Origin: Streptomyces sp. NBC_00237 | Lineage (GTDB): Bacteria > Actinomycetota > Actinomycetes > Streptomycetales > Streptomycetaceae | Reading direction: 5' to 3' | Length of the DNA stretch: 64,000 bases | Assembly: GCF_026342435.1 (NCBI RefSeq) | Contig: NZ_JAPEMT010000002.1 | Coordinates: 2,790,001 to 2,854,000 of the forward strand | Shown here: piece after piece, positions 6,964 to 28,856 of the stretch | Layout: every line of letters starts with the position of its first letter | Numbering within the stretch: the first letter of the stretch is position 1 | Position numbers and translations under genes: made by a program | The notes under the pieces: model-generated | Databases searched by the model: none | What the model was told of the DNA's origin: nothing | The model's input: the letters and a program-made list of their open reading frames with translations, nothing else

Positions 6964-7619
6964 GGCATGCACTGCTTGGCTCCCTCGGTCGACTGGACGG
7001 TGACCGTCTGCCACACGCCCTTGGCGTTCTTCCTGAGGCCGGTGCGGTAGTGCACGTAGTCGCTCGGGGACCCGGCCGGGTGCGAGACCTTCTGGGTCTT
7101 GCGGTCCTTCGGGTAGGTCTTGGACGCGTCCAGGCAGTACGTCACCTCGGCGGCGGTGCCCTTGAGGGAGGTGACTTCGCGGTCGTAGAAGCGGGTGGTG
7201 CCCGTGAAGGTCTTGCCGTCCTTGTAGAAGGAGGTGATGTAGTTCGTGGCGGTGATCAACGCGTCGCCGGACGAGTAGAACGTGACCGCCTCGCCGGTCT
7301 TCCCGCCGATCGTGATGGCGGCGTCGACGGAGTTGACCCGCCGTTCGCTGTCCGCGAGGACCGCGTCCTTCGCCGGGTCGCCGGTGGGGCCGTCCTCGAA
7401 GACGTTCCGCACGTCCTCGGGCAGCACGATCTTCGGCCGCCCCGCCACCGGGTCCGCCTTCGTGCTCGGCGCGGCCTTCGGCTTCCCCGCGTCCGCCCCG
7501 GCGATCTTGTCGGACTTCCCGGACGGCTCCGCGCCGGAACCCCCGCAGGCCGTGACGGCCAGTGCCGTGGCACCAACGAGAGCCAGCGCGGCGGCAGTTC
7601 GGTAAACGTGGTGGTGCAT
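6960..7619 (-). CDS. Lipoprotein of Tad locus (paralogue at 20.8 kb)
   Basis: A 219-residue predicted lipoprotein. The lipobox is LAVTAC with Cys25 after a short hydrophobic signal, followed by a Gly/Ser/Lys-rich linker. The C-terminal domain (about 80-219) holds NVFEDGPTGDPAKDAVLAD, TGTTRFYDREVTSLKG, a YC half-cystine and GVWQTVTVQ. The same blocks occur in the lipoprotein at 20783-21448, and weaker matches in that at 22649-23440. ATG 7619 is used because it begins the signal peptide; residues upstream in the same frame are hydrophilic. It sits between tadG and the secreted partner. The function is unknown; an envelope accessory of pilus assembly is inferred from position. Confidence 0.85.
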   Translation of the reverse strand: MHHHVYRTAAALALVGATALAVTACGGSGAEPSGKSDKIAGADAGKPKAAPSTKADPVAGRPKIVLPEDVRNVFEDGPTGDPAKDAVLADSERRVNSVDAAITIGGKTGEAVTFYSSGDALITATNYITSFYKDGKTFTGTTRFYDREVTSLKGTAAEVTYCLDASKTYPKDRKTQKVSHPAGSPSDYVHYRTGLRKNAKGVWQTVTVQSTEGAKQCMP

Positions 7620-7660
7620 GGTGTGCGTCTCCTCGTAGGTAACAGGGGCTTCGGGGGGGC

Positions 7661-8140
7661 TCACCCCGCCACGGACTCCGCCACCGCCGTGCCCGTCACG
7701 GTGATCGCGCCGCCGTAGAACATGCCGGTCAGGATCGGCCGGTACGTGAGCTGGATGGTGGCCTCGACCTGCTGCGCGTCCGCGTCGACGCAGCCGGAGG
7801 CCGCGATGTCCGGGCCCGACATCTCCATCTCCCGCGCGAAGGCCCTCACCCGGTCCGCGCAGTTCGCGAAGTTGATCGGCGCGGGCCCGCCCTCGTCGAC
7901 GTACAGCGCCTCCAGGTCGACGTCCTGCGCCGCGTACCTGGCGGCCTGCTCGGCGATGTCGGCGGCGCGTTCGCGCTGCGAGATCGACAGGCCGCCGTCG
8001 ACGACGAACGCCGCCAGCGCCAGGAACACGAACGCGAAGATCAGTACGGCGGCGGCCCCGGACCCCCGGTCGTCGGCGGCCCGCACCCGGCGCGCCAGCC
8101 AGTCCCTCGCCGTTCCCCTCACCGTTGCGAAAGTCCTCAA
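7661..8140 (-). CDS. TadG-like pilus assembly protein
   Basis: A 159-residue TadG-type minor pseudopilin. After a basic N-terminus comes DRGSGAAAVLIFAFVFLALA, a single membrane helix (about 26-48), then DGGLSISQRERAADIAEQAARYA, typical of the Tad/TadE-TadG group. The periplasmic/outer part has two cysteines (NCADR, SGCVDA) that could form a disulfide. Actinobacterial members are shorter than proteobacterial TadG, which carries a vWA domain missing here. Its start (ATG at 8138-8140) overlaps the stop of the preceding TadE-like gene by 4 nt, so the two are co-translated. The symbol is left blank because the assignment is to the family only. Confidence 0.82.
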   Translation of the reverse strand: MRTFATVRGTARDWLARRVRAADDRGSGAAAVLIFAFVFLALAAFVVDGGLSISQRERAADIAEQAARYAAQDVDLEALYVDEGGPAPINFANCADRVRAFAREMEMSGPDIAASGCVDADAQQVEATIQLTYRPILTGMFYGGAITVTGTAVAESVAG

Positions 8141-15127: not shown

Positions 15128-16033
15128 ATGACCTCCCACCGGGCCACGGCGCCCGCCACCCCCGCCGCCCTCCCCATAACCGGCGACGTCATCCGCGACT
15201 CCCCCGCCCTCCACGCCGACGTCCAGCTGCTCTCCGCCCAGTACGGCGTGGACTTCACGGACGACGCGTCGATACGCCCCCTCCTCGCCCGCCACAAGGA
15301 AGCGGTCCACCGCCTCCGCCACAGCCCCAAGGCGTGGGTGGGCGGCATTTCCCTCCTGCTGGCGGTCTGCCTCCCCTTCGCCACCCTCACGGCCCTGGGC
15401 CCACCCGACCTGGCAGAGGCCCCCCGCTCCCTGGCCGTGCACATCGCCCCGGGCCTCGCCCTCTTCGCCTTCGGCCTCACGCTCCTCATCCAGTCCCACC
15501 GCAGGGCGGTCCGCCGCATGAACCACCCGGAACTGGTCGGCTACCGCATGGTGTTGGCGACTGCAACGGCCCACCGGGTCCCCGTCCCCGCAGCCCCGGC
15601 CTGGCTGGTGGGCCGCGACTCCACCACCGACAAGGAGACCCACCCCCTCCCCGAACTCCCCCTGAAGCCCCACCCGACCCCTACCGAAGCCCCCCTCGCC
15701 CCTCCCGTACCGCAGAAGCCATACGACGTGATCCAGTACGAGTCCCTCGGCGGCGAGGGCGGCTGGCACGACGAAGCGGGCTTCGGCCTCGTCCTGGCGG
15801 GCGGCATCGCCGCCGTCTGGGCCACCTCCGAGGGCGAACCGGCCGGGTACGCCCTGGCCGCAGCCCTCGCACTCCTCGGCATCCGGACCTGGCTCGCAGG
15901 CCGCCGCCAGGGCAACCGCCACCGGGCCCTGCGCGATGCGGCGCAGCGGTACGTGGCGGAGGTGACGGCGGCGCAGCGTGCGGGGGCCCAGGTCCCGGAG
16001 CTCTCCGAGAAGCTCCGGAAGCTCATCGTCTGA
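15128..16033 (+). CDS. Hypothetical two-region membrane protein
   Basis: A 301-residue protein of no family I recognise. A soluble N-terminus (1-65) contains SAQYGVDFTDD, then a pair of hydrophobic helices (about 72-125), a Pro-rich cytoplasmic or external loop (to about 205), and a second hydrophobic pair (about 218-258) ending in a basic helix with a coiled-coil look. ATG 15128 has CCGGAG 6-7 nt upstream. It is transcribed toward the T7SS cluster and away from the Tad operon; it could belong to either neighbourhood or neither. Confidence 0.75.
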   Translation: MTSHRATAPATPAALPITGDVIRDSPALHADVQLLSAQYGVDFTDDASIRPLLARHKEAVHRLRHSPKAWVGGISLLLAVCLPFATLTALGPPDLAEAPRSLAVHIAPGLALFAFGLTLLIQSHRRAVRRMNHPELVGYRMVLATATAHRVPVPAAPAWLVGRDSTTDKETHPLPELPLKPHPTPTEAPLAPPVPQKPYDVIQYESLGGEGGWHDEAGFGLVLAGGIAAVWATSEGEPAGYALAAALALLGIRTWLAGRRQGNRHRALRDAAQRYVAEVTAAQRAGAQVPELSEKLRKLIV

Positions 16034-16088
16034 GGCCGTGAAACGCGCGAGACCCCTCACACGGTCGTCGCTCCGTCATCACGTCCGC

Positions 16089-16144
16089 ACGACAATTACA
16101 CATTCGCTCCAGCTAACTCGCACACTCTCGCGCTTAACGTCAGT
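16089..16144 (+). promoter_or_regulatory. Promoter-like block shared with 20691-20746
   Basis: Aligns without gaps over 56 bp with the block upstream of the second T7SS unit, about 40 positions identical. Shared islands include AATxACAC, TTCxCTCC, CGCACAC and TAACGTC. TAACGT (16135-16140) could be a -10 (TANNNT), placing the transcript start near 16147. No standard -35 is seen, so an activator or alternative sigma factor is possible. Confidence 0.6.
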
Positions 16145-16147
16145 CGC

Positions 16148-16227
16148 GGACGTACTCCCCGCCGTACGTACTCGTCGCCGTACGTACTCCTCGCCTGACG
16201 TACTCCTCGCCTGACGTACTCCTCGCC
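16148..16227 (+). repeat. Five 16-bp tandem repeats in the leader of the T7SS cargo operon
   Basis: Units start at 16148, 16164, 16180, 16196 and 16212; consensus GTACGTACTCCTCGCC. They end just before the AAGGAG ribosome binding site at 16232-16237, so the untranslated leader would be made almost wholly of repeats. The GTAC palindromes could fold or bind protein. Confidence 0.8.
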
Positions 16228-16246
16228 GTACAAGGAGCAATCGAAC

Positions 16247-16576
16247 GTGTCGGACCTGCAAGCCGATCTCGAACGGATCAAGAAGTTCTCGAAGGACCTG
16301 GGCGCGATCCACACCGAGTTCACCCAGGAGTCGAACCCCGCCGACGGCTACGGGACACAGGAGCTCGGCTCCAGGACGGTCGTCGACGCGTTCGGGGACT
16401 TCAGCAGCAACTGGAAGATCCACCGGGAGCGGCTCACCGACGAGCTGAAGATCCTGCGCGACCTCTCGGCTGCCGCTGCCGAGAACTTCGAGGCCATCGA
16501 CAAGGCACTGGCCGACGCCCTCCGCGGCGAGGACAAGAAGAACAGCAAGCCCCGCACCCCGCAAGGACCCCGCTAG
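16247..16576 (+). CDS. Small helical ESX/WXG100-like protein, first gene of T7SS operon
   Basis: A 109-residue, mostly helical protein, the size of an ESX-family partner. Two long amphipathic helices (MSDLQADLERIKKFSKDLG and RERLTDELKILRDLSAAAAE) flank a loop with GYGTQELG; a canonical W-x-G is not present, the nearest Trp being in FSSNWKIH. The GTG start has AAGGAG 9 nt upstream. Its TAG overlaps the GTG of the following large cargo gene (TAGTG), so the two are coupled, as expected for a chaperone-like ESX partner of a T7SS substrate. Assignment is by size, helices and context. Confidence 0.65.
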   Translation: MSDLQADLERIKKFSKDLGAIHTEFTQESNPADGYGTQELGSRTVVDAFGDFSSNWKIHRERLTDELKILRDLSAAAAENFEAIDKALADALRGEDKKNSKPRTPQGPR

Positions 16577-18039
16577 TGGCCAGGCCAGGCGCCCACGAGT
16601 GGGACGTGCTCGGACACGACTCCGATCCGGTGCCCGGAAACCCGGAGAGCGTCGCCAGGCTCGGCCGGGAACTGCGGAAGACCGCCGACGCGATTCGGCG
16701 GCAGGCAGGCGAGATCCGCGCGCTCAGCAAGGTGGACTCCTGGAAGGGCGAGGCCGCCGACTCCTTCCGCAAGGAGGCCGAGGAGGCGGACGGCAAGCTC
16801 CAGAAGGCGTTCAAGCGGTACGACGTCGCTTCCCGCGCCATGGGCACCGAGGTACGCGAAGGACAGGACGAGTCGGGCGAGTTCGCGAGCGAACTGAACC
16901 GGGCGCAGAAGGCCGCGGACAAGGCGCTGCGGGCGGCGCAGGAGGCCGACCAGGAGGCTTCCGGCGCGAAGAAGGCACTGGACGGCCAGAAGAAGGACAC
17001 CCCGAAGGACGATCCCGCCCGGGTGAGGCTGGAAGGCAGGCAGGACGCCGCCGACTCGGCGCTCACCCAGGCCAGGAAGGACCTGGACGCGGCGATCCTC
17101 ATCCGTAAGAACGCCGAGGAAGCCGCTGCGAAGAAGATCCGGGACGTGATCGACGACGACGGCCTGAAGGACGGCACCTGGGACAAGTTCAAGGACTGGG
17201 TGCACGACAACGCCGACCTCCTCAAGAAGATCGGCGACGTCGCGGGGTGGGTGGCCACGGCGGCGGGCGGCCTGGCGCTGGTGGTCGGCTGGATTCCGGT
17301 CATCGGGCAGGCGCTCGCAGGCGTCCTCGGCACGATCGCGCTCATGGCCACCGCGGTGTCCCTGGTGACACACGTGATGCTGGCGCTGGCGGGAGAGGGC
17401 GGCTGGTTCGACGTGGCCCTGGACGTGGTGGGGCTGGCGACCTTCGGTATCGGCCGGGCCGCGATCGGCGGTGCGAAGGCGGCGGGGGCCGGTACGAAGG
17501 CGGCCGCCCGCTCCAGCCTGTACCAGAAGGAGATGGCCAAGCACGCGGGCAAGAAGCTCAGCAAGAACGCTCTCAACAGGGCTGAGGAAAAGGCGTGGAA
17601 GGCGGCGCGGAAGGGAAGTGCGGATGCCCCGAGGGGCAAGGCTTCCGCCGAGGCGATGAAGAACGCACCGAGCGGCTGGTTCCCCGGCAAGCAGGCGGTG
17701 TTCGACGCGTTCAACCCGAAGAAGATCGTGGGGGACAGCGTGGACAGCGTGAAGGACCTCAAGGCGCTCAAGGACGCACCCGACCTGCTGCGGGGGGAGA
17801 CCTGGCGGGGGGTCGGAAAGCACTCCGTGGACGGTGGTCTCGACGACATCGGACGGCAGGTGGACACCATCGACGATGCGGTCAAGGGCAGTGCCGGCGT
17901 GAAGTCGGCCATGAACGGGCTCGACGCCCAGACGAAGCTCTGGTCCGGCACGACCGCGGTCGCCACGACCGTCGACGGCTCGGACAAGTTCGGCGTCTAC
18001 GACCCGCTCAAGGACGCCACCACGGTGGGGAACGGCTGA
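16576..18039 (+). CDS. Putative T7SS-secreted protein with WXG100-like N-terminus
   Basis: A 487-residue protein. Residues 1-110 form a WXG100-like hairpin with W56-K-G58 in VDSWKGEAADSF, the pattern of actinobacterial putative T7SS-secreted proteins. A long Lys/Ala-rich coiled coil (110-195) follows. Two or three Gly-rich hydrophobic segments (about 218-300, e.g. VGWIPVIGQALAGVLGTIALMA) precede a basic C-terminal domain with no toxin fold I can name. The hydrophobic centre resembles LXG/WXG polymorphic effectors, so membrane insertion or a C-terminal effector is possible but unproven. It overlaps the small upstream gene and is 4 bp from the next. Confidence 0.75.
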   Translation: MARPGAHEWDVLGHDSDPVPGNPESVARLGRELRKTADAIRRQAGEIRALSKVDSWKGEAADSFRKEAEEADGKLQKAFKRYDVASRAMGTEVREGQDESGEFASELNRAQKAADKALRAAQEADQEASGAKKALDGQKKDTPKDDPARVRLEGRQDAADSALTQARKDLDAAILIRKNAEEAAAKKIRDVIDDDGLKDGTWDKFKDWVHDNADLLKKIGDVAGWVATAAGGLALVVGWIPVIGQALAGVLGTIALMATAVSLVTHVMLALAGEGGWFDVALDVVGLATFGIGRAAIGGAKAAGAGTKAAARSSLYQKEMAKHAGKKLSKNALNRAEEKAWKAARKGSADAPRGKASAEAMKNAPSGWFPGKQAVFDAFNPKKIVGDSVDSVKDLKALKDAPDLLRGETWRGVGKHSVDGGLDDIGRQVDTIDDAVKGSAGVKSAMNGLDAQTKLWSGTTAVATTVDGSDKFGVYDPLKDATTVGNG

Positions 18040-18043
18040 ACCC

Positions 18044-19426
18044 ATGGCGTACGAGACACCTCCTGCCGGGGCGATGCGCCCCCTGGGCAACCGGCCTCCC
18101 GGCCTCGACATCGTCCGCCGCACCCGGCTCTTCGCGACGGAAGGAAAGACGGACGGAAAGCTCGTTCTGACGTCCCGCGACGGCACCGCGCGGGAGTTCC
18201 CCGTGGGCCCCGGGGGAATCACGCGTGCCGTGCACATCGACATCCTCGGCCCTGAGGCGGCGAAGCGGATGCCGCCTTCCGGTTCCTGGGGAGCGATCGA
18301 ATTCCAGCGGGCCGACGGCAGCCGGGTGCTGCGGGTCCCTCTGGGCGAGTGGCTTCCCGAGGTGTCCTCGCTCACCGCCCGGGTGGGCGGCCGTGAACTC
18401 CTGGAACTCACCGGCGCTGCCGACCTGTTGCGCGAGCTCCGCGTACCCGTGGTCACGGTCCGCTCCTTCGAGGACCCCGCCCTGGAGAACTCGGCCACCG
18501 GCCCCGGTACCGACCTGTGCGTCAGTGCGGTGCTCCCCGTGTGGCACCACGCGGTGCGGGCGGGGCAGCTCGGCTGGTTCGCCCTCATGGCCGTCGCGCT
18601 GATCGCACCCGGCACCCAGTCCTGGTCGGGCCCGCTGGCCGGGCTCTTCCTCCTCTCGTACACGGGGACCGACCTCTTCTTCTGGGCGAAGGGCAAGCGG
18701 CAGCAGCGAGGCGAACTCCCGGGCGTGATACTGAAGTTGCGCCCCGAAGCCGCCCACCACCACGCCGTCAGCCGCCGCTTCTCCGAGGTGTCCGCGCTGT
18801 ACGTGCTGGCCGACGACATCGTCGTACGGGACTCCACGGGCCGGGAGCGCTGGTTCGCCCGGGCAGGCACCCATGCGGTGACCCGTGTCGTACGACGCGA
18901 ACCGACGAGGCCCGCCACGCCCCGGGGGCCGGAGCCCGGCCGCCCCCTGGCCGTCGAGCTCCGGGGCCCGGGCGGGATCACGCGTGCCGTACTCCCCTGG
19001 GAATGGTGGTTCGGCGGCGACGAGGGCGAGCGCAACTGGCAGGCACTCGCGGCGGCCGTCGGCGATGCGGCGACGGAGACCGCGCCTGCCGACCGCGCGG
19101 ACGACCGGGACCGCCATCGCGGCCTCGACCGGCGCGACTCCGCCTTCCTGGCGCCGCTGAAGCCGCGAACGGCCCGGTCCCTCACCGGCTTCCAGTCCTC
19201 CGTCGTGAAGAACGTGAGCCCGCAGGCGGTGTACGTCTTCCTCCTCTTCACCCTCCTGCTGGGTCACACGGCCGCCGGACCGCTCACCACCGGTGTCGCC
19301 ATCGCCGCCCTGCTGGCCGCCCTCCTGCCCGCCGTGGCGGACTCCGCGACCAGCAGGCTCGCCCTCGACCGCCCGCCGAGGCAGACGCCTCCCCGGCAGC
19401 ACAGCCCGGAAGGAGTCTCCCGATGA
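18044..19426 (+). CDS. Hypothetical membrane protein with duplicated module, T7SS operon
   Basis: A 460-residue protein of unknown family. Two soluble modules share the string GPGGITRAV (about residues 56-64 and 308-316), each ahead of a strand with PLGEW or PWEWW, so the protein looks internally duplicated. A helical hairpin (about 178-215) separates the modules and a second hydrophobic pair (about 400-440) is near the C-terminus. It could be a membrane component or an immunity/anchor partner of the preceding cargo. The stop overlaps the next ATG by 4 nt. Confidence 0.75.
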   Translation: MAYETPPAGAMRPLGNRPPGLDIVRRTRLFATEGKTDGKLVLTSRDGTAREFPVGPGGITRAVHIDILGPEAAKRMPPSGSWGAIEFQRADGSRVLRVPLGEWLPEVSSLTARVGGRELLELTGAADLLRELRVPVVTVRSFEDPALENSATGPGTDLCVSAVLPVWHHAVRAGQLGWFALMAVALIAPGTQSWSGPLAGLFLLSYTGTDLFFWAKGKRQQRGELPGVILKLRPEAAHHHAVSRRFSEVSALYVLADDIVVRDSTGRERWFARAGTHAVTRVVRREPTRPATPRGPEPGRPLAVELRGPGGITRAVLPWEWWFGGDEGERNWQALAAAVGDAATETAPADRADDRDRHRGLDRRDSAFLAPLKPRTARSLTGFQSSVVKNVSPQAVYVFLLFTLLLGHTAAGPLTTGVAIAALLAALLPAVADSATSRLALDRPPRQTPPRQHSPEGVSR

Positions 19427-20028
19427 CCCCGCCCAGCGACTACGTCCTCAGGCTCCCCGAGGGCTGGTTCCGGGTGCATCTCGACCCCGACCGCCGCAGG
19501 AAGTCCGTCGACGCCCTGGTCGAGAGGCAGTTCGCAGGCGCCGACGACCTCCCCCACCTCAAGAAGGAGGCCAGGTCCGAGCTCCTGGCCCGAGCCAGGA
19601 AGGCGTACAAGAACGGCGGTGTGGAGCTCTACCTGAGTCTCCAGAAGGCCGGCCGTCTCACCATTCCGGCATCGCTCCTGATCACGCTCGTCCCGCCGCG
19701 GACCGCACAGGGACTGCCGCTCGACGCCCTGGCGGAGCACCTCGCCGCCAACGGTCCGCTGGAGCAGGAGGTCTCCCTGGAAGAGCTCCCGGCCGGGAAC
19801 TCCTGTCGCGTGCGGGCCCGCAGAGCCCTGGAGGAGCCGGCGGGGGAACCGCACCCCGAGGAGCTCGCCGAACTCTCCTCCGCCCCTGCCACCTCCGTCG
19901 ACCATTACATCGAGATCCCCGGCAGCCGGGCCCTCCTGCTGCTCTCCTTCTCGACCCCGCTGGACCCGATCGCCGACGCGATGGCCGAGCTCTTCGACGC
20001 CGTCGCCCATTCTCTGACCTGGACCTGA
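19423..20028 (+). CDS. Hypothetical protein, T7SS operon
   Basis: A 201-residue soluble alpha/beta protein of no family I recognise. It starts VLRLPEGWFRVHLDPDRRRKSV, has a Lys/Arg-rich helix (DLPHLKKEARSELLARARKAY), and ends with beta-rich YIEIPGSRALLLLSFSTPLD. The general layout (positively charged helix, later IPGS strand, terminal helix) is shared with the next gene's product in outline only. ATGA overlap with the membrane-protein gene implies coupled translation. Confidence 0.75.
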   Translation: MTPPSDYVLRLPEGWFRVHLDPDRRRKSVDALVERQFAGADDLPHLKKEARSELLARARKAYKNGGVELYLSLQKAGRLTIPASLLITLVPPRTAQGLPLDALAEHLAANGPLEQEVSLEELPAGNSCRVRARRALEEPAGEPHPEELAELSSAPATSVDHYIEIPGSRALLLLSFSTPLDPIADAMAELFDAVAHSLTWT

Positions 20029-20037
20029 GGACCTCCC

Positions 20038-20637
20038 ATGGCGCACATCACCGACTGCGACCTCGGCCTCCACGACGGCTGGGTGGTGCTCCCGCTGGAC
20101 CCCGACGCCGACGTCTCGGGCTGGGCCGATGCCACGGCGCGGGAACTGGCGGAACGGGCCTCCGCCGAGGGCTCGTCCTTCCGCCTGGACCTCCTGCGCC
20201 AAGAGCTCCGCGAGCAGGCCGCCGACAGCCGCGAGCGCTCCCCCGTCCTGGCCGCCGCGCTCTACCTGAACGGGTTCGAGTCCGCCGCGGTGGTGCTGGA
20301 GGCGGACTTCGTCCTCCCGTCGGAGGAGGTCCCCGTCATCACGTCCGACTGGTTCGTACGGAACTTCAGCGACGCCGCCCTCGGCACGCCGGACGTGTCG
20401 CACGGGGAGGTCCCGGCGGGCCCCTGCACCCGTATCAAGCAGCTCCTCGCCGGGCCCCGCGCCGACCAGGACGGCGCACGCCCCCTGCTGGAGACGATCG
20501 CCTACGCGGTCTTCCCGGAGAACACCCGGAGCGCGGTGCTCGTCCTCTTCTCCTGGACCGGCGCGGGCGTCGAGGAGTCCGTCCAGCGGATGGCGACGGA
20601 CATCGTGGCTTCGCTGACCGTGGAACTCTCCGCCTGA
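20038..20637 (+). CDS. Hypothetical protein, last gene of T7SS cargo operon
   Basis: A 199-residue acidic soluble protein without recognised domains. It begins ITDCDLGLHDGWVVLPLDPDADV, which mirrors the opening of the preceding protein (LPEGWFRVHLDPDR), and ends AVLVLFSWTGAG plus a terminal helix like the preceding protein's LLLLSFSTPLD. The two may therefore be distant paralogues forming a pair. ATG 20038 follows GAGGACCTCCC, a good ribosome binding site. The next gene has its own promoter-like block. Confidence 0.75.
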   Translation: MAHITDCDLGLHDGWVVLPLDPDADVSGWADATARELAERASAEGSSFRLDLLRQELREQAADSRERSPVLAAALYLNGFESAAVVLEADFVLPSEEVPVITSDWFVRNFSDAALGTPDVSHGEVPAGPCTRIKQLLAGPRADQDGARPLLETIAYAVFPENTRSAVLVLFSWTGAGVEESVQRMATDIVASLTVELSA

Positions 20638-20690
20638 CCCGCCTGGCCCGCCTGACCCGGCTCCCCGGGCCGGGAAACACCTCACCCCAC

Positions 20691-20746
20691 ACGAGAATGA
20701 CACGTTCACTCCGGCGAATCCGCACACCCGGGTGCCTAACGTCGTT
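20691..20746 (+). promoter_or_regulatory. Promoter-like block shared with 16089-16144
   Basis: Second copy of the 56-bp conserved block described at 16089-16144. TAACGT is at 20737-20742; the GTG of the lipoprotein gene follows 41 bp later. Conservation outside coding sequence at two starts of the same locus argues for co-regulation. Confidence 0.6.
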
Positions 20747-20782
20747 CCCCGATACCCCAACGGCCCGCCGGGAGTTCCACCT

Positions 20783-21448
20783 GTGAACCTTCGCAATTCA
20801 CCCTTTGCCACAGCATGCGCCGCAATCGCTGCAGCCCTCCTCCTGACGTCCTGCGGAGGTGAGGGGAAGGACGCGGCCAAACCCTCGGGCGCGATCGACG
20901 GGGCGGATGCGGACACCGCCGCGAAGAAACCGTCGGCCCCGGGCACTCCGGCCCCGGGCTCCGCCGCCCGTCCCCCGGTCAACCTCCCCGCCGACGTCAA
21001 GAACGTCTTCGAGGGCCAGAAGAGCGGGGACCCGACGAAGGACGCCGTGCTCGCCGACAACGCGGAACGCATCAACGCGGTCGACGACGCCATCGTGCGC
21101 GGCACCGCCGACGCGAAGGGGCTGGGCTTCTACAACGACGGCGACGCCCTGGGAACTTCGGTGACCTTCGTCCAGGGCTACGTGGACAAGAAGCTCACCT
21201 GGACGGGCACCACCCGCTACTTCGACCGGCAGGTGACGTCCCTGAAGGGGGGAACCGCCACGGTCGCCTACTGCTCCGACGAGAGCAGGTCGTTCCTGAA
21301 GAACCGCATGACCGGAAAACTCGACAGGACGCCGACCAGCGCGGACAGCTACGTCTTCTACAACACCCAGTCGAAGAAGAACGCACAGGGCGTGTGGCAG
21401 ACCACGCGCGTGATCTCGCAACGGGGAGCCGCGAAGTGCCAGCCGTGA
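20783..21448 (+). CDS. Lipoprotein of T7SS locus (paralogue of Tad-locus lipoprotein)
   Basis: A 221-residue predicted lipoprotein: lipobox LLTSC with Cys24, then an acidic/Ala/Pro linker. The domain at about 75-221 matches the Tad-locus lipoprotein in order: NVFEGQKSGDPTKDAVLAD, TGTTRYFDRQVTSLKGG, VAYCSDESRSF and GVWQTTRVI, ending in a Cys-x-Pro. GTG 20783 has GGGAG 8 nt upstream. Its stop overlaps the secreted-protein GTG by 4 nt, the same junction as in the Tad locus. The function is unknown. Confidence 0.87.
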   Translation: MNLRNSPFATACAAIAAALLLTSCGGEGKDAAKPSGAIDGADADTAAKKPSAPGTPAPGSAARPPVNLPADVKNVFEGQKSGDPTKDAVLADNAERINAVDDAIVRGTADAKGLGFYNDGDALGTSVTFVQGYVDKKLTWTGTTRYFDRQVTSLKGGTATVAYCSDESRSFLKNRMTGKLDRTPTSADSYVFYNTQSKKNAQGVWQTTRVISQRGAAKCQP

Positions 21449-22461
21449 GCCCGAAGAACCGCAGGCCCGTCCTCCTCGCCGCCCTGGTCTGCCTCGGCGT
21501 ACTGACTCCGGCCACGGCCCACGCGGGCGGCCGTGGCGGCGCGGGCACCGACGGCGCGGAGCAGACGGGTGGCGCCGCCGACGGAAAGATCTCCGCCGGA
21601 GTCGTCTTCGACCGCTCGAAGAACGGCACCGGAACCACCTCGGGACCGGTCACACCCGTCTCCGACTGGACCCCGCCCGCCTGCTACTACGCCCCCCGGT
21701 ACAGCCCGGACCAACTGCAGAAGTACCTGGAGCCGATCTGGGCCGTCGACTCGACGGGCGCGCAGTGGGACCTGGAGCAGCGGAACCGCTACGTCAACGG
21801 CAAGCCGTACAAGGACTTCAACAAGTCCAAAGCGGGCAAGGGGCATTGGTGGGACAGCTTCATCCCCGACGGCCGTGAGGGAGATCCCCGGGCCTTCGAC
21901 TGCGACAAGCCCTACTTCTGGGTCGACAAGGGCGACCCGCCACCGGCGGACGTCCCCGAGGCCGTCACCCCCGAACGCCTCGCCCAACTCGCCTACGCCG
22001 AGATCCGCATTCCCGGCACCGCCATCGCCCTTGCCCCGCAGGCCGAGTCCAAGGTGAACCTCCCCACCTGGGCGTGGCTCGACAAGGCCGCCTTCAAGCC
22101 GGTGTCGGTCACGGCCTCCGTACCCGCTATCGGCATCGAGGCGACGACCACTGCCGAGCCGGTCTCCCTGAAGCTCGAACCCGGCACACCCGACGCCACG
22201 CTCCACCCGGCCTCGGGCGAGTGCCCGATCACAGGCGGCCGCATCGGCGAGCCGTACGCCAAGGGAAAGGCCCACCGCACCCCGCCCTGCGGCCTCACCT
22301 ACCTCCGCGCCTCCGGCGACAAGCCGTACTCCCTCCAGGCCACCATCACCTGGAAGATCCACTGGACGGGTACCGGAGGCGCGGGCGGAGACCTCCCCGA
22401 CGGGGCCTTCGGGGCGGTGCAGGACATCACCGTCCAGGAAATCCAGGCCATCAATCGCTGA
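21445..22461 (+). CDS. Secreted protein of T7SS locus (paralogue of Tad-locus secreted protein)
   Basis: A 338-residue secreted protein. Signal peptide with PVLLAALVCLGVLTPATAHA, cleavage before GG. The body shares with the protein at 5935-6963 the blocks WTPPACYY, DFNKSKAGKGHWW, CDKPYFWVDKG, WAWLDKAAFKPVSVTA, DATLHPASGECP, TPPCGLTYLRASGD and LPDGAFG, ending in a near-identical VQEIQAINR. The GTG at 21445 is chosen because it begins the signal peptide and reproduces the GTGA overlap of the paralogous pair. No enzyme motif is visible. Confidence 0.87.
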   Translation: MSPKNRRPVLLAALVCLGVLTPATAHAGGRGGAGTDGAEQTGGAADGKISAGVVFDRSKNGTGTTSGPVTPVSDWTPPACYYAPRYSPDQLQKYLEPIWAVDSTGAQWDLEQRNRYVNGKPYKDFNKSKAGKGHWWDSFIPDGREGDPRAFDCDKPYFWVDKGDPPPADVPEAVTPERLAQLAYAEIRIPGTAIALAPQAESKVNLPTWAWLDKAAFKPVSVTASVPAIGIEATTTAEPVSLKLEPGTPDATLHPASGECPITGGRIGEPYAKGKAHRTPPCGLTYLRASGDKPYSLQATITWKIHWTGTGGAGGDLPDGAFGAVQDITVQEIQAINR

Positions 22462-22576
22462 AGGCGAGGAGTAACGGATTCAGCTGGCCACCAGGAATCG
22501 GGCAGAACTCATCGAGATGGTGAAGACGCTGAGAATGCGCCCTGGTGTGCAATACCCCCATGAATAAGGCCCGTTG

Positions 22577-22595
22577 GCGGAATTGTGCATTCCGC
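22577..22595. promoter_or_regulatory. Perfect inverted repeat upstream of the third lipoprotein gene
   Basis: GCGGAAT, 5-nt spacer, ATTCCGC, about 55 bp before the GTG at 22649. It could be an operator, or a weak hairpin closing the previous unit; no T-run follows. Confidence 0.45.
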
Positions 22596-22648
22596 AGATA
22601 GCTTCGATGTTCTCGCATCCCACCCGCCGCAACAGGAGTAGTTGACAC

Positions 22649-23440
22649 GTGAACCGTCGCCGCCCCATAACCACAGCCGCCGCCTGCACCGTGGCCGCCG
22701 CCCTGCTGCTGAGCGCCTGCGGAGGCGACGGGGACGGCAAGAAGCCCGCCTCGGGCGCGGCTCCCGGTGCCGCCCGTCCGGCGAAGGACTCGCCGGACGC
22801 CCCGGCGCCCGGGCCGCAGCGGCCCGACATCGGCCTGGGCGGCGGCCACAAGGTGACCTTCGACTTCGCGCGGCCCGCCGATCCCGGAGAGGCCGCCGCC
22901 CTCGCCGACTCCTCGCGCTTCGTGCAGGCGATCTGGCACGGGATCCTCGCGCAGGACGCCAACGACCCGGCGTACCGGTTCTACTCGCGCAAGGACGCGA
23001 CCGCCTTCGGCAAGAGCCGGATCGAGGCGGAGCTGAAGGGCGGCTGGACGCCCTCCGGAACGGATCGCTACTACAACGCCAGCACGGTCGCAGGGGACGC
23101 GAAGTCCGTGCGGGTCACGTTCTGCCACGACGGGTCGAAGGCGTTCAGCAAGGCGAAGAAGACCGGCAAGCGCCGCACCGCGAAGCCGAACCCGGACAAC
23201 TTCCAGAAGTACAGCGTGCTGATGCGCCCTTCGCCCGCCCTCCCCCAGGGATGGGTGGCCGAACAGGTCCAGGTCCAGGAGCGGGCGACTGCGGAATGCC
23301 GCGTCACCAAGTCCTCGGAGGCCAAGAAGCGCCCTGCCAGGAGCACCCCGCCCGCCGGACACCGCAAGGAGAACCCGCCGCGCAAGTCCGACAGCGGCAG
23401 CGGCAGCAAGACCAAGAAGCCCCGGACCTCCCGGCACTGA
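22649..23440 (+). CDS. Lipoprotein, diverged third paralogue in T7SS locus
   Basis: A 263-residue predicted lipoprotein (LLSAC, Cys24). The central domain resembles the other two lipoproteins: YRFYSRKDA, SGTDRYYNAST, VRVTFCHDGSKAFSKAKKTGK (compare YCLDASKTYPKDRKTQK in the Tad copy), then VAEQVQVQE and a late Cys. It lacks the NVFE block and has a long Lys/Pro/Ser-rich basic tail (about 225-263) absent from the others. GTG 22649 has AGGAG about 9 nt upstream. It has no secreted partner downstream. Confidence 0.8.
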   Translation: MNRRRPITTAAACTVAAALLLSACGGDGDGKKPASGAAPGAARPAKDSPDAPAPGPQRPDIGLGGGHKVTFDFARPADPGEAAALADSSRFVQAIWHGILAQDANDPAYRFYSRKDATAFGKSRIEAELKGGWTPSGTDRYYNASTVAGDAKSVRVTFCHDGSKAFSKAKKTGKRRTAKPNPDNFQKYSVLMRPSPALPQGWVAEQVQVQERATAECRVTKSSEAKKRPARSTPPAGHRKENPPRKSDSGSGSKTKKPRTSRH

Positions 23441-23579
23441 GGATCCAGGCCGGACCGCGCGGAACGGGTGGCCGAGGTACGGCGCGGGAGGCGCACACGC
23501 TCGCGGCCAGAGCGACCAGAGCGATGGGTCCACGATGAGCCCCAGCAGGCCGGGAACCGCCGCCGGTGCGGGCGGTGGT

Positions 23580-23617
23580 CCCGGGGCGGGGGCGGGCGCG
23601 CAGGCCCGCCCCCCGGG
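23580..23617. terminator. GC-rich hairpin between convergent lipoprotein and WXG100 genes
   Basis: CCCGGGG-rich arm pairs with GCCCGCCCCCCGGG, with a small bulge; no T-tract. Its position between two converging genes suggests a two-way terminator. Confidence 0.4.
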
Positions 23618-23641
23618 CCGTGCGGAGGTCCGGCGTCCGGG

Positions 23642-23941
23642 CTACTTCTTCGCCGCCCGGCCCAACTCCTCGTCGATCGACTGGAACTTGTCCGCCGCCG
23701 TCGTCAGGTAGTCGCCGATGCCGTCGAGACCGCCGATGGTCTCCTTCGCGCCGGTCGTGAACTCCTCGAAGTTCTGGTCGAAAGCCTTGGAGGCGGACTT
23801 CGTGACGAAGCCCGTGTTGACCAGGTTGTCGATGTACTTCTTCAGGCCGTTGAGCTTCTCGTTGAGCTTTTCCTTCTCCTTGACGATGTACTTCGCCGCA
23901 TTGCGCATGTCGTCATAAGTGACATCCAGGTCTTTTGCCAT
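23642..23941 (-). CDS. WXG100/ESAT-6-like protein
   Basis: A 99-residue helical hairpin protein of WXG100 size. Helix 1 (VTYDDMRNAAKYIVKEKEKLNEKLNGLKKY is the continuous first part) and helix 2 (TGAKETIGGLDGIGDYLTTAADKFQSIDEELGR) surround a turn reading TGFVTKSASKAF where W-x-G-x-A-x-x-F is usual; the Phe is kept and Trp-x-Gly is replaced. GGAGGAGAG lies 5-6 nt before ATG 23941. It is divergent from the EssC-like ATPase gene and is the best candidate for its small secreted substrate. Confidence 0.8.
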   Translation of the reverse strand: MAKDLDVTYDDMRNAAKYIVKEKEKLNEKLNGLKKYIDNLVNTGFVTKSASKAFDQNFEEFTTGAKETIGGLDGIGDYLTTAADKFQSIDEELGRAAKK

Positions 23942-24218
23942 GAAAGCTCTCCTCCGTAAGGGGGCACGCGCAGGCCCGTAAGTAAGCAGTGCCGTACCGG
24001 CGTTCGCAGCAGCTTACGAAAGGAATTCGGCGGGGCAAGCGGCGGGAAAGGCGTGTGAAGAGGGGGTGCAGGGCAGGCCATTGCCGGTGTCCTGGGGGTT
24101 GTGGATAGGGTCGCCGTGCGCGTTCAAGGGGGGCGGTTGCAGGTTCCGCTTGGCATCTGCGCATTTGCTCCACACTTTTCTACTGCATGCCCACCGGACT
24201 TCCACGGGGAGGATGCCC

Positions 24219-27200
24219 ATGCGCCTGACTCTGACCGTCGTCGACCCGTTCGCCGGGTCCAGCACCGATGTCGTACTCGACGCCGACGCCGAGTCGACCG
24301 TCGCCGACGTGGCGAGTGAGCTGGGCGAGCGCGTGGGCACCCCGATGGCCGGACGCGTGGCCGGACACGTGACCGGAAGCGCGGACGCCCGCGTCGTCGT
24401 CCCGATCGGCAGCGGCAGGCGCGGCGTCGTCGACACACCGCCGCCGCCACTGCTGTACGTCGACGGGGTCCCACTCGACCCGTCGGCCCCGCTCCTCTCC
24501 TCCCCGCTCCGCGAAGGCGCGGTCGTCAGCCTCGGCGACCCCGTCGGCTGCGCGCCGGGCGAGCCCACCGGCCTCGTCGAACTGCGCGTGGTGGGCGGCC
24601 CGGCAGCCGGGGCCGTGCACCGGCTCGGCGTCGGGCGGTACGCGATCGGCAGCGGGCCCGGCCGCCAGATCCGTATCGAGGACGACCCGGAACTCCCCGA
24701 GCACGCCCTCACCCTCTCCGTGGCCATCGACGGCACCTGCACCATGCTGCTCCCCAAACCCGAACCCAAACCCAAACCCGAACCCGACCACGACCCCGCC
24801 GCCGCCCGCCTCGACGGCGAGGAAATCGCGGAGGGTGCCGACCGGGACTGGCCCCTGAACGCCCAACTCACCCTCGGCAACACCCTCTTCGAGCTGGCCC
24901 GTTACTCACCCCCGGACGCCGCCCTCAAGTGGTCCGACGACGGAGCCGCCTTCGACTACAACCGGCCGCCCCGCCTGCGCCCCGCCGACCGCGAGACCAC
25001 GTTCCGGCTGCCCGCCCCGCCCCGCGAGCCCGACCCCCGCCCGCTGCCCTGGCTGATGGCCGTCTTCCCGCTCGTCTCGGCCATCGTGATGTGCCTGGTC
25101 TTCAACCGCTGGTACTACATGATCATGGCCGTGTTCAGCCCGGTCATCCTGTTCGCGAACTACTTCATGGACAAGAAGAACGGCCGGAAATCGCACGCCA
25201 AGCTGCTCAAGGAGTACGAGGAGCACAAGGCCCGCATCGAGCAGGACGCCCAGGACGCGCTGACCGCCGAGCGCGCCGACCGCCGCCGGGCCGTGCCCGA
25301 CCCCGCGTCCGTCCTCACCTTCGGCACCGGCCCCCGCACCCGGCTCTGGGAGCGCCGCCGCACCGACGCCGACCACCTCCTCCTGCGGGTCGGCACGGGG
25401 CTGCTGCCCTCCGACGTCGTACTCGACGACCCCGAGAAGGACGAGCACCGGCGCAAGGTCACCTGGGAGATCCCCGACGCCCCGGTCGCCCTCCCGCTCC
25501 GTACGCTCGGCGTGATCGGCTTGGCCGGGCCAGGCGATTGCGCGACGGCGCTCGGACGGTGGGCGGTCGCCCAGACGGCGACCCTGCACAGCCCGATGGA
25601 CGTACAGCTCTACGTCCTCACCGAGCAGGCAGGGCAAGGCAGTTGGGACTGGCTCCGCTGGCTCCCCCACTCCCGGCCGACCGGCGGCCAGGACGCCCAT
25701 TCCCTTCTCGGTACGGACGCGGAGACCGTCGGCGCGCGGATCGGCGAGCTGACGCAGATCCTGGACGCCCGCACCAAGGCCGCCAAGGAGCGCGGCAACC
25801 AGCCGGGTCCCGCCTTCACCGATCCCGACCTGGTCCTCGTCTGGGACGGCTCCCGCCGCCTCCGCTCCATGCCGGGCGTGGTCCGCCTGCTCCGCGAGGG
25901 CCCCTCCGTCCAGATGTACTCCCTCTGCCTCGACGCCGAAGAACGCTTCCTCCCCGGCGAATGCCAAGCCGTCGTCGTCGCCGAACCCGTGGGGGCGGCC
26001 CCCGGCGGAGCGGAACCCCTCGCTCCCGCGCCGCCCAGCACCACCTCCGGCTTCCCCTCCTTCAGCAACTGGCACACCGCCCAAGCCACCGCCCCCGACA
26101 CCCCGGAAGCCTTCCGCCTCCGCGTCGAGCAGGCCAACACCGCCCGCATCCCCTCCGTCCGCCCCGACTTCGTCACCCCCGCCTACTGCCTCCGCCTCGC
26201 CCGCTCCCTCGCCCCCCTCCGCGACATCAGCGGCGAGACCGAGGACTCCGCCCTCCCGGCGGCGAGCCGCCTCCTCGACGTCCTCCAGCTCGAACCCCCC
26301 ACCGGCGAAGCCGTCGCCGCCCGCTGGCGCACCGGCGGCCAGTCCACCCTGGCCGTCGTCGGGGAGTCGTACGACGGCCCCTTCGGCATCGACATCCGCC
26401 GCGACGGCCCGCACGGCCTGATCGCCGGAACCACCGGTTCCGGCAAGTCGGAGCTGCTCCAGACCATCGTCGCCGCGCTCGCCGTCGCGAACACGCCCGA
26501 GTCGATGACCTTCGTGCTCGTCGACTACAAGGGCGGTTCCGCCTTCAAGGACTGCGTGAAGCTCCCGCACACCGTCGGCATGGTCACCGACCTCGACGCA
26601 CACCTCGTCGAGCGCGCCCTCGAATCCCTCGGGGCCGAGCTGAAGCGCCGCGAGCACATCCTCGCCGCCGCTGACGCGAAGGACATCGAGGACTACCAGG
26701 ACCTGATCCGACGGAACCCCGGATCACTCGCCCCCGTCCCCCGCCTCCTCATCGTCATCGACGAGTTCGCCTCGATGGTCCGCGACCTCCCCGACTTCGT
26801 GACCGGCCTGGTCAACATCGCCCAGCGCGGCCGTTCCCTCGGCATTCACCTCCTCCTGGCCACCCAGCGCCCCTCCGGCGTCGTGTCCCCCGAGATCCGC
26901 GCCAACACCAACCTCCGCATCGCCCTGCGCGTCACCGACGGCAGCGAGTCCAGCGACGTCATCGACTCCCCCGAGGCCGGAAACATCAACAAGTCGACAC
27001 CCGGACGGGCCTACGTCCGCCTCGGCGCGGCCTCCCTCGTCCCCTTCCAGTCGGGCCGCGTCGGCGGCCGTCGCCCCGGCGCGGCGGACTCCCGGGTCGC
27101 CGCCCCCTGGTCGGCCGTACTCGACTGGTCGGAGCTGGGCCGTTCCGCCCTCACCCGGCCGCCCGCCGCCGCCCGCGAGGAGGAGGAGATCACCGACCTC

Positions 27201-28856
27201 AAGGTCCTGGTCGACGCCGTCCGCGACGCCAACGAGCGGCTCGCCATCCCCGCCCAGCACAGCCCCTGGCTCCCCCCGCTGGACGAACAGCTCCTCCTCG
27301 ACAGCATCACCGGCGTCCCCGCGCAAGGCGCCCTGCCCGCCGCCCCGTACGGCGTCGAGGACATCCCCGCCCAGCAGGAACGCCGCCCCGTCACCGTCGA
27401 CTTCGCGACCTTCGGCCACCTCCACATCGCGGGCTCCCCCCGCTCGGGACGCTCCCAGGTCCTCCGTACGATCGCCGCGTCGCTGGCCCGTACGCACTCC
27501 GTCGCCGACGTCCACCTGTACGGCATCGACTGCGGCAACGGCGCGCTGAACGCCCTCACCGCGCTCCCGCACTGCGGAGCCGTCGTCGGCCGCGCCCAGA
27601 CCGAGCGCGCGACCCGCCTGATCAGCCGCCTCGACGCCGAACTCACCCGGCGTCAGGACCTGCTCGCCGAGCGCGGCATCGCCGACATCGGCGAGCAGCG
27701 CGCAGCGGCGGCCGACCCCGCCGAACGCCTCCCCCACCTCGTGGTCCTCATCGACCGCTGGGAGGGCTGGCTGACCTCGCTCGGCGAGATCGACCACGGC
27801 GAACTCACCGACCAACTCGTCGTGTTGATGCGCGAGGGGGCCAGCGTCGGCATTCACATCGTCATCACCGGCGACCGCCAGCTCGCCTCCGGGCGCCTCG
27901 CGTCGCTCACCGAGGACAAGCTCGGTCTGCGCCTCGCCGACCGTACCGACTTCTCCCTCATCGGCATCCCGACCCGCAAGGTCCCCGAGGAGATCCCGCC
28001 GGGCCGCGCCTTCCGCGCGGAGACGGCGACGGCGGTGCAGTTCGCGCTGCTGAGCGAGGACGCAACGGGCCAGGGCCAGGCGGCGGCGATCAACGCCGTC
28101 GGAGCCGAGACGACGGCTCGGGAAGCCGAAGTCCCGCGCGCACAGCGCCCGTTCCGCGTCGACACGCTTCCCTCCCGCATCACCTTCCCCGACGCGTGGG
28201 CGCTCCGCGACGCCGAGGCTTCCCGCTCCCCCCTCTGGGCGCTGGTCGGCGTCGGCGGCGACGAACTCACCGGCTACGGACCCGACCTGGCGACCGGCGT
28301 CCCGGCCTTCGTCGTCGCGGGCCCCGCCAAGTCCGGGCGTTCCACCACCCTCCTGAACATGGCCCGCTCCTTCCTCTCCCAGGGCGTACGCCTCGTCGTC
28401 GCCGCCCCGCGCACCTCGCCGCTGCGTGAACTCGACTGCACCGAGGGGGTGTTGAAGATCTTCACGGACGACGACATCGAGAGCGACGAACTGGAGGAGT
28501 TCACCGAACTGGCGTCTCCCGAGGAGCCGGTCGTCGTGATCGTCGACGACGCCGAGATGCTGGAGGACTGCGACGCGGCCCCCGTCTTCAGGCGCATCCT
28601 GCAACGCGGCACCGACCAGGGCCTGGCCCTGGTCCTCGGCGGTGACGAGGAGGACGTGTGCAGCGGCTTCAGCGGCTGGCAGGTCGACGTGAAGAAGGCC
28701 CGCCGGGGCCTCCTGCTCTCCCCGCAGGACACCACCAGCGGCGAACTCATCGGCATCCGTACCACCCGGGGCATGGTCGGCGGCCCGATCGCCCCGGGCA
28801 CGGGCATGCTCCACCTGGGCACGGGCGAGCACCGGACCGTCGTGACTCCCGTATAG
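24219..28856 (+). CDS. T7SS motor ATPase, EssC/EccC type with FHA-like N-terminus
   Basis: A 1545-residue FtsK/SpoIIIE-family ATPase. The N-terminus (1-215) contains ubiquitin-like/FHA-like segments (VELRVVGGPAAG, GVGRYAIGSG) as in EssC, with a Pro-Lys-Glu repeat near 190. Two membrane helices lie at about 275-318. Three ATPase modules follow: module 1 has an intact Walker A GTTGSGKS (about 736-743) and LLIVIDEFASM as Walker B, while modules 2 (GSPRSGRS, about 1071) and 3 (GPAKSGRS, about 1365) have Arg instead of the P-loop Lys. ATG 24219 is preferred over ATG 24213 because GGGGAGG lies 6 nt upstream. No EccB/D/E or mycosin gene accompanies it. Confidence 0.92.
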   Translation: MRLTLTVVDPFAGSSTDVVLDADAESTVADVASELGERVGTPMAGRVAGHVTGSADARVVVPIGSGRRGVVDTPPPPLLYVDGVPLDPSAPLLSSPLREGAVVSLGDPVGCAPGEPTGLVELRVVGGPAAGAVHRLGVGRYAIGSGPGRQIRIEDDPELPEHALTLSVAIDGTCTMLLPKPEPKPKPEPDHDPAAARLDGEEIAEGADRDWPLNAQLTLGNTLFELARYSPPDAALKWSDDGAAFDYNRPPRLRPADRETTFRLPAPPREPDPRPLPWLMAVFPLVSAIVMCLVFNRWYYMIMAVFSPVILFANYFMDKKNGRKSHAKLLKEYEEHKARIEQDAQDALTAERADRRRAVPDPASVLTFGTGPRTRLWERRRTDADHLLLRVGTGLLPSDVVLDDPEKDEHRRKVTWEIPDAPVALPLRTLGVIGLAGPGDCATALGRWAVAQTATLHSPMDVQLYVLTEQAGQGSWDWLRWLPHSRPTGGQDAHSLLGTDAETVGARIGELTQILDARTKAAKERGNQPGPAFTDPDLVLVWDGSRRLRSMPGVVRLLREGPSVQMYSLCLDAEERFLPGECQAVVVAEPVGAAPGGAEPLAPAPPSTTSGFPSFSNWHTAQATAPDTPEAFRLRVEQANTARIPSVRPDFVTPAYCLRLARSLAPLRDISGETEDSALPAASRLLDVLQLEPPTGEAVAARWRTGGQSTLAVVGESYDGPFGIDIRRDGPHGLIAGTTGSGKSELLQTIVAALAVANTPESMTFVLVDYKGGSAFKDCVKLPHTVGMVTDLDAHLVERALESLGAELKRREHILAAADAKDIEDYQDLIRRNPGSLAPVPRLLIVIDEFASMVRDLPDFVTGLVNIAQRGRSLGIHLLLATQRPSGVVSPEIRANTNLRIALRVTDGSESSDVIDSPEAGNINKSTPGRAYVRLGAASLVPFQSGRVGGRRPGAADSRVAAPWSAVLDWSELGRSALTRPPAAAREEEEITDLKVLVDAVRDANERLAIPAQHSPWLPPLDEQLLLDSITGVPAQGALPAAPYGVEDIPAQQERRPVTVDFATFGHLHIAGSPRSGRSQVLRTIAASLARTHSVADVHLYGIDCGNGALNALTALPHCGAVVGRAQTERATRLISRLDAELTRRQDLLAERGIADIGEQRAAAADPAERLPHLVVLIDRWEGWLTSLGEIDHGELTDQLVVLMREGASVGIHIVITGDRQLASGRLASLTEDKLGLRLADRTDFSLIGIPTRKVPEEIPPGRAFRAETATAVQFALLSEDATGQGQAAAINAVGAETTAREAEVPRAQRPFRVDTLPSRITFPDAWALRDAEASRSPLWALVGVGGDELTGYGPDLATGVPAFVVAGPAKSGRSTTLLNMARSFLSQGVRLVVAAPRTSPLRELDCTEGVLKIFTDDDIESDELEEFTELASPEEPVVVIVDDAEMLEDCDAAPVFRRILQRGTDQGLALVLGGDEEDVCSGFSGWQVDVKKARRGLLLSPQDTTSGELIGIRTTRGMVGGPIAPGTGMLHLGTGEHRTVVTPV

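Follow-up and report, generated by a model that had tools for sequence, protein, structure and literature searches.

Two promoter-like blocks at a type VII secretion island of Streptomyces sp. NBC_00237 and their probable place in a promoter class of lipoprotein units

In a 64,000-nucleotide stretch of the soil bacterium Streptomyces sp. NBC_00237 (contig NZ_JAPEMT010000002.1, positions 2,790,001 to 2,854,000; hereafter the window), two promoter-like blocks stand before genes associated with the type VII secretion system (T7SS): block 1 before a cargo operon and block 2 before a lipoprotein gene and its secreted partner. We think it fairly probable that both are copies of one Streptomyces promoter class, found before T7SS-associated lipoprotein units and less often before cargo, which combines a -10 element of the principal sigma factor with a -35 element of a dedicated activator. 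The layout of this class and its near-specificity for T7SS-associated genes appear from sequence comparison between genomes, and the membership of block 1 would rest mainly on its likeness to block 2. Coordinates are collected in Table 1.

An earlier note on this DNA had described the blocks as matching without gaps at about 40 of 56 positions, and we find 41 identities between 16089-16144 and 20691-20746. The highest-scoring segment is somewhat longer (16085-16150 against 20687-20752; 48 of 66 identical, score 30), and none of 2000 dinucleotide-preserving shuffles reached its score (mean 9.4, standard deviation 1.3, maximum 15). When the two block regions are set against the window's other 206-bp pieces (304 of them), the best score is 19 for block 1 and 15 for block 2. 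Mechanically listed open reading frames overlap both blocks on either strand. With frames chosen by composition, block 1 is free and block 2 is touched only by the far start of the lipoprotein frame at 20732; we place the true start at 20783 because of the leader and start of its relatives (GGGAG..., GTGAACCGCC), and the description of both blocks as non-coding holds.

The likeness is also rare in the genome. A 5' core pattern (19 specified positions), searched with as many as 3 mismatches allowed, hits just two places in 9.2 Mb, the two blocks themselves; reversed as a control, it hits none. The 3' core pattern (18 specified positions) finds 10 other places at 3 mismatches versus 8 for its reversed control, and the 3' half of the block alone is non-specific at that stringency. 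A pattern of 37 specified positions, again with up to 3 mismatches, has no match in 294 other genomes of the genus, so within that sample the blocks themselves are unique to this genome.

The class itself was learned from other genomes. The lipoprotein encoded at 20783 belongs to a multi-copy family with a member in 98 of 392 genomes of the genus, this one included (E<=1e-25); in this sample, which is without close relatives, the closest lipoprotein outside the genome is 60% identical. We gathered 88 regions upstream of family members, 86 from other genomes and 2 from this one. A 54-bp identity comparison of the lipoprotein homologue loci with the blocks gave nothing, and the class emerged on reading the upstream regions side by side. 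Words enriched in them without a seed include ATAGCGT, GATAGCG, TTCGCTC and CTCTGGT. A two-box model, seeded with enriched words and trained on the 86 foreign regions only, converged on AAATTCGCTCTGGTGTCACC.. followed, 11 or 12 bases past this 22-base box, by TAGCGT, in about 75% of the regions. The layout of the class reads TTCRCYCTGGYGW at the -35 region, then 17-18 bp, then TANCGT. At a threshold of 20 bits, 60 of the 86 regions carry it in their original cut, and 62 do once two regions that had entered training wrongly cut at contig ends (L068 and L082) were recut.

The motif training used neither block, which makes the window scan an independent test. In it, block 2 ranks first (19.7 bits) and a site at 22565-22612, missed by the earlier note and lying before a third lipoprotein gene, ranks second (17.6 bits); the next position scores 9.2 bits. 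As a background from the same genome, none of 290,302 positions reaches 20 bits and two reach 18, namely block 2 and one position in L146. In three family members from outside the genus (L032, L033 and L034), the class is absent.

Forty-eight sites from other genomes were aligned; they were picked by motif score, which inflates the apparent conservation. Their -10 hexamer, TANCGT or TANCTT, keeps T, A, C and the last T in 48 of 48 sites, and this comparison agrees with the earlier reading of TAACGT as placed like a -10. The three hexamers in the window (TAACGT, TAACGT and TAGCTT) all fit one of these two forms, and TANNNT holds in the 48 aligned sites and in all three. At the -35 region, T is kept in 47, G in 44 and a second G in 48 of the 48 sites, and the spacing is 17 in 13 sites and 18 in 35. 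The -35 element of block 2, TTCACTCCGGCGA, has one C for T relative to the class; block 1 keeps TTCGCTC, with GGYG partial; and the third site has only the TTGGCGG half of the element, at a spacing of 18, inside the class range.

In agreement with the remark that no standard -35 is visible, we found no TTGACA/TATAAT-type consensus promoter in 15900-23700. The class likewise lacks an NTGACC- or TTGACA-like -35 and has TGGYGW instead, which does not exclude HrdB, the principal sigma factor, since such a -35 is often weak or absent in published data. S. coelicolor promoters have a TANNNT -10 and a weak NTGACC -35 (PMC4895711), and 62% of those with both hexamers have a spacer of 15-20 nt (PMC4895711, PMC6344877). 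The class resembles HrdB-type promoters in its -10, and its spacer of 17-19, blocks included, lies within their range. It differs from them in a -35 TGGYGW that is preceded by a conserved TTCRCYC, in place of NTGACC, and in being nearly confined to one gene group in the genomes searched.

This confinement was measured with a sequence-only Infernal model of the 48 foreign sites (R1), run at E<=0.05 on 24 chosen genomes, 20 with the lipoprotein family and 4 without. Such a genome search scores 150 out of thousands of first-look candidates, and the hit counts are lower bounds; hits were assigned to genes by coordinates, by tblastn and by reading. R1 gave at least 56 matches, in 17 of the 20 family-bearing genomes and in 0 of the 4 others. 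Directly before a lipoprotein-family gene lie 46 of the matches, 5 lie before apparent T7SS cargo, and 5 lie elsewhere (L179, L185, L187, L188 and L192, all with E>0.01). The 36 matches with E<=7e-4 are all before lipoprotein genes; 15 of them are in the model alignment and 21 are not, one of the latter (L035) having been omitted from it as nearly identical to a member. Among genomes without the lipoprotein family at E<=1e-10 (the 4 and 16 more), 0 of 20 have a match. A separate scan of 45 loci added one match, L222 2010-2051, with 24.9 bits; the gene behind it belongs to the lipoprotein family and reads in two frames.

The five cargo cases (L182, L183, L186, L191 and L177) extend the class beyond the lipoprotein family. 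By Pfam, T7SS_signal is above its cut-off in L183 and L186 and WXG100_2 in L191, and the L182 cargo reaches 25.3 for T7SS_signal versus a cut-off of 27. In L216 (1264-1500) and L243, a ribosome site and the opening codons of a lipoprotein gene (VKRHPLPVAIAL..., compare VKRRTLPTAAAL) follow the promoter, and these codons break off before the cargo gene; by reading, similar lipoprotein-gene stubs lie between promoter and cargo in L218 and L191. The gene behind the L182 site is cargo, yet by eye its leader looks like those of lipoprotein genes as far as the ribosome site. From these stubs and the L182 leader, cargo units appear to gain their promoter from lipoprotein genes, more than once; the stubs, in four genomes, are suggestive of promoter capture and show a plausible route by which effector units could change their control. 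Block 1 may be another such case.

The earlier note had proposed joint control of the cargo operon and the lipoprotein pair by one regulator or sigma factor. Joint control is supported in kind, because the same class precedes cargo-type units in other genomes as well as lipoprotein genes. Its main basis in this genome is the likeness of the two blocks, because block 1 alone scores poorly (rank 15 with the class motif, unlisted with R1). The second half of the proposal found no support: the -10 fits the general Streptomyces -10, an extracytoplasmic function (ECF) sigma consensus does not fit well, and no regulator was identified.

Several results weigh against placing the blocks, above all block 1, in the class. 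Block 1, in the same register as block 2, scores only 6.1 bits with the class motif and is 15th of about 128,000 window positions. Both blocks have a spacing of 19 bp, which occurs in 0 of the 48 aligned sites, and both have C at the position where 47 of the 48 have T. With filters off, the top R1 match in the window is unrelated (6072-6097, 10.3 bits); the 22575 site takes second place with 8.1 bits, block 2 roughly sixth with 5.9, and block 1 is unlisted. A genome-wide R1 search of the own genome lists none of the three sites. A further model, R2, ranks them first to third in this genome, with block 1 third, but it includes those sites by construction; it brought up no further convincing site there. 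The blocks are degenerate at the -35 (CAGCTA and CGGCGA) and spaced at 19, so they may be weaker or need an activator more.

Other results of this kind concern the class as a whole. The motif is missing from 24 of the 86 lipoprotein upstream regions. In nine of the 24, by reading, a TadE-like, secreted-partner or lipoprotein gene on the same strand ends 53 to 159 nt before the match, and these nine may lie inside operons; by a script criterion, a gene ends within 75 nt in 3 of 27 regions without the motif (one being L037 of this genome) versus 0 of 60 with it. Among 70 regions in front of homologues of gene 16247, which opens the cargo operon, only 4 score 18 bits or more (L217, L218, L243 and L216, the last identical in place with L183), and the nearest homologues (L193-L203) are without the class upstream. 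Pfam assigns no T7SS domain to the L177 cargo. Scanning genome contigs with the lipoprotein gave three loci in two Streptomyces strains (L223-L225), none with an R1 match; the same scan with a 460-aa protein found no relative. Specificity for one family could also come partly from common descent of promoter and gene. As for promoter capture at block 1, a 16-bp tandem repeat takes up its leader, in which no lipoprotein stub is seen.

Our favoured reading, in which principal-sigma -10 and dedicated-activator -35 act together, could work as follows. RNA polymerase with HrdB would read the -10, and the non-standard -35 region would be bound by a dedicated activator, such that the lipoprotein pair, the third lipoprotein and the cargo operon would be switched on together. 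Block 1 would be a lipoprotein promoter that came to the cargo operon by copying or capture and has diverged since. More tentatively, and with rather less confidence than an even chance, we propose a dedicated T7SS regulon in which one activator with a private -35 element drives both lipoprotein-secreted-protein pairs and cargo operons, and which new cargo joins by capturing a lipoprotein promoter, either through loss of the lipoprotein gene or through transfer of promoter and leader. A recurring regulator gene was sought in 12 island pieces with crude gene calls and no family search, and no cluster present in at least 3 pieces looked regulator-like by eye. Shared control would link a lipoprotein family of unknown function to cargo, and the class would offer a starting point for learning how this secretion system is activated. 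The signature is short and specific, which would allow T7SS units to be listed from sequence alone and could serve as bait for finding the regulator.

The Streptomyces T7SS (ESX) with EsxA and EsxB has reportedly been described by Akpe San Roman in 2010 and by Fyans in 2013, and the genes served here lie in an island with a WXG100 gene and a gene that we take to encode an EccC-like ATPase. In Bacillus subtilis, which belongs to a different phylum, the ESX system is under DegU-P control (PMC3701619); the likeness would lie in a T7SS under a specific activator, as proposed here. No publication on a common promoter or regulator of these units surfaced in literature search results or in passages of PMC6262351 and PMC8401907.

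The strongest of the other explanations, which we nonetheless consider unlikely, needs no dedicated regulator: block 2 and the 22565 site would be ordinary principal-sigma promoters inherited with the lipoprotein family and kept for their strength, and block 1 would be a copy of block 2 that was preserved but is not controlled jointly with it. It accounts well for a class whose sites lie mostly before one homologous family (46 of 56 matches) and whose -10 fits the general TANNNT, and HrdB promoters frequently have no -35 (PMC6344877). It accounts less well for a -35 region conserved between genes that are mostly 40-60% identical to those of the window, or for the presence of the class, in other genomes, in front of cargo genes that are not homologous.

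It is quite unlikely that the class is instead read by a dedicated alternative sigma factor of the ECF type, with a GAAAC-like -35 and a CGTC-like -10. The ECF consensus has a GGAAC-type -35 and a conserved CGTC -10. GAAAC does occur at the -35 region in 12 of the 48 sites, 11 of these with TANCGTC, but it is missing from the other 36; moreover, the -10 never varies in its initial T, its A or its last T, whereas a C follows the -10 in 18 of 48 only.

That a response regulator of the PhoB/OmpR kind (PhoP or AfsR-like) binds a tandem 11-bp repeat at the -35, with TCRCY occurring twice 11 bp apart, seems to us very doubtful. The PHO unit has a consensus that extends beyond GTTCACC, and GTTCACTCCGG in block 2 agrees with it at 10 of 11 positions. 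The second unit averages only 5.6 of 11 (random 4.5, standard deviation 1.5) and is 3 of 11 in both blocks. An offset of 11 gives 3.48 of 11 identical versus 3.25 expected from the columns, which is no clearer than an offset of 9 (3.35 versus 3.13) and less clear than one of 18 (3.30 versus 2.96). The TTCRC of the class and its -35 stretch do resemble the GTTCACC of S. coelicolor PHO boxes (PMC4415409), but the class has no second well-matching 11-bp unit. There is also a weak dyad around TGGYG.nnCC, whose pairs are complementary in 17, 30, 28, 9 and 24 of the 48 sites versus 8.8, 16.1, 16.4, 10.6 and 16.1 expected. Neither this dyad nor the weak 11-bp repeat decides what kind of protein binds.

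Finally, two copies of a 66-bp piece with abrupt ends in one region might recall a mobile element, or a small repeat of intergenic DNA, that does not act as a promoter, which is hardly credible given that the genome has just two copies in 9.2 Mb and that block 2 matches a class standing before the same genes in many genomes.

Table 1. Promoter-like sites and genes of the T7SS-associated region, in window coordinates.
Feature	Position	Strand	Basis or remark
Block 1, promoter-like element before the cargo operon; TTCGCTCCAGCTA ... TAACGT; putative weak, diverged class member	16085-16150	+	48/66 identity with block 2
-10-like hexamer TAACGT of block 1	16135-16140	+	predicted start near 16147
16-bp repeat array, 5.1 copies, occupying most of the predicted cargo-operon 5' leader	16150-16231	+	Tandem Repeats Finder
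Small gene, 109 aa, first of the cargo operon; WXG-like by resemblance only	16247-16576	+	no Pfam family above cut-off
Cargo protein gene, 487 aa, with T7SS_signal domain, second in the operon	16576-18039	+	PF21725, 27.1 bits vs cut-off 27
Block 2, promoter-like element of the lipoprotein pair; TTCACTCCGGCGA-19-TAACGT	20687-20752	+	top window match to foreign-trained motif, 19.7 bits
-10-like hexamer TAACGT of block 2	20737-20742	+	predicted start near 20749
Lipoprotein gene, 221 aa, first of the pair	20783-21448	+	start by leader homology
Secreted partner gene of the pair; putative start overlaps the lipoprotein stop	21445-22461	+	
Third site, GTTGGCGG-18-TAGCTT, before the third lipoprotein gene	22565-22612	+	second-best window match, 17.6 bits
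Lipoprotein paralogue gene, 263 aa, behind the third site	22649-23440	+	31% identity to the 20783 product
WXG100 gene adjoining the lipoprotein pair	23642-23941		Pfam family match
Presumed EccC-like ATPase gene adjoining the lipoprotein pair	24066-28856		named from its sequence

Homologues of the small gene at 16247 occur in 48 of 65 chosen genomes (E<=1e-4). Several of the near ones (L197-L203 and L205) trail the tail of a TadE-like gene (AENEVG or similar), and there the cargo genes may be transcribed together with pilus genes. In the window, the repeat array in front of this gene has the 16-bp unit ACGTACTCCTCGCCGT and begins immediately past the predicted transcript start of block 1; the cargo-operon leader showed no unusual RNA fold (z 1.45).

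A further lipoprotein paralogue with a secreted partner lies at 6960-7664 behind a TadE-like gene, named by resemblance; it has no class promoter and is apparently within that gene's operon. Before the EccC-like gene, at 24160-24190, GCATTTGCTCC resembles CATTCGCTCC of block 1, with no matching -10 by eye. Half sites of the form TTACAC or TGACAC lie upstream of the class element in both blocks, as seen by eye; operator motifs of BldD or WhiA have a TNACNC palindrome or GACAC. In other genomes, the class members with an 11-base gap (L021, L028, L038, L076, L085 and others) share a long leader with TTGGTTCGCTCAAGAGAAGCCTCGCC directly past the -10, possibly a second site or a leader signal.

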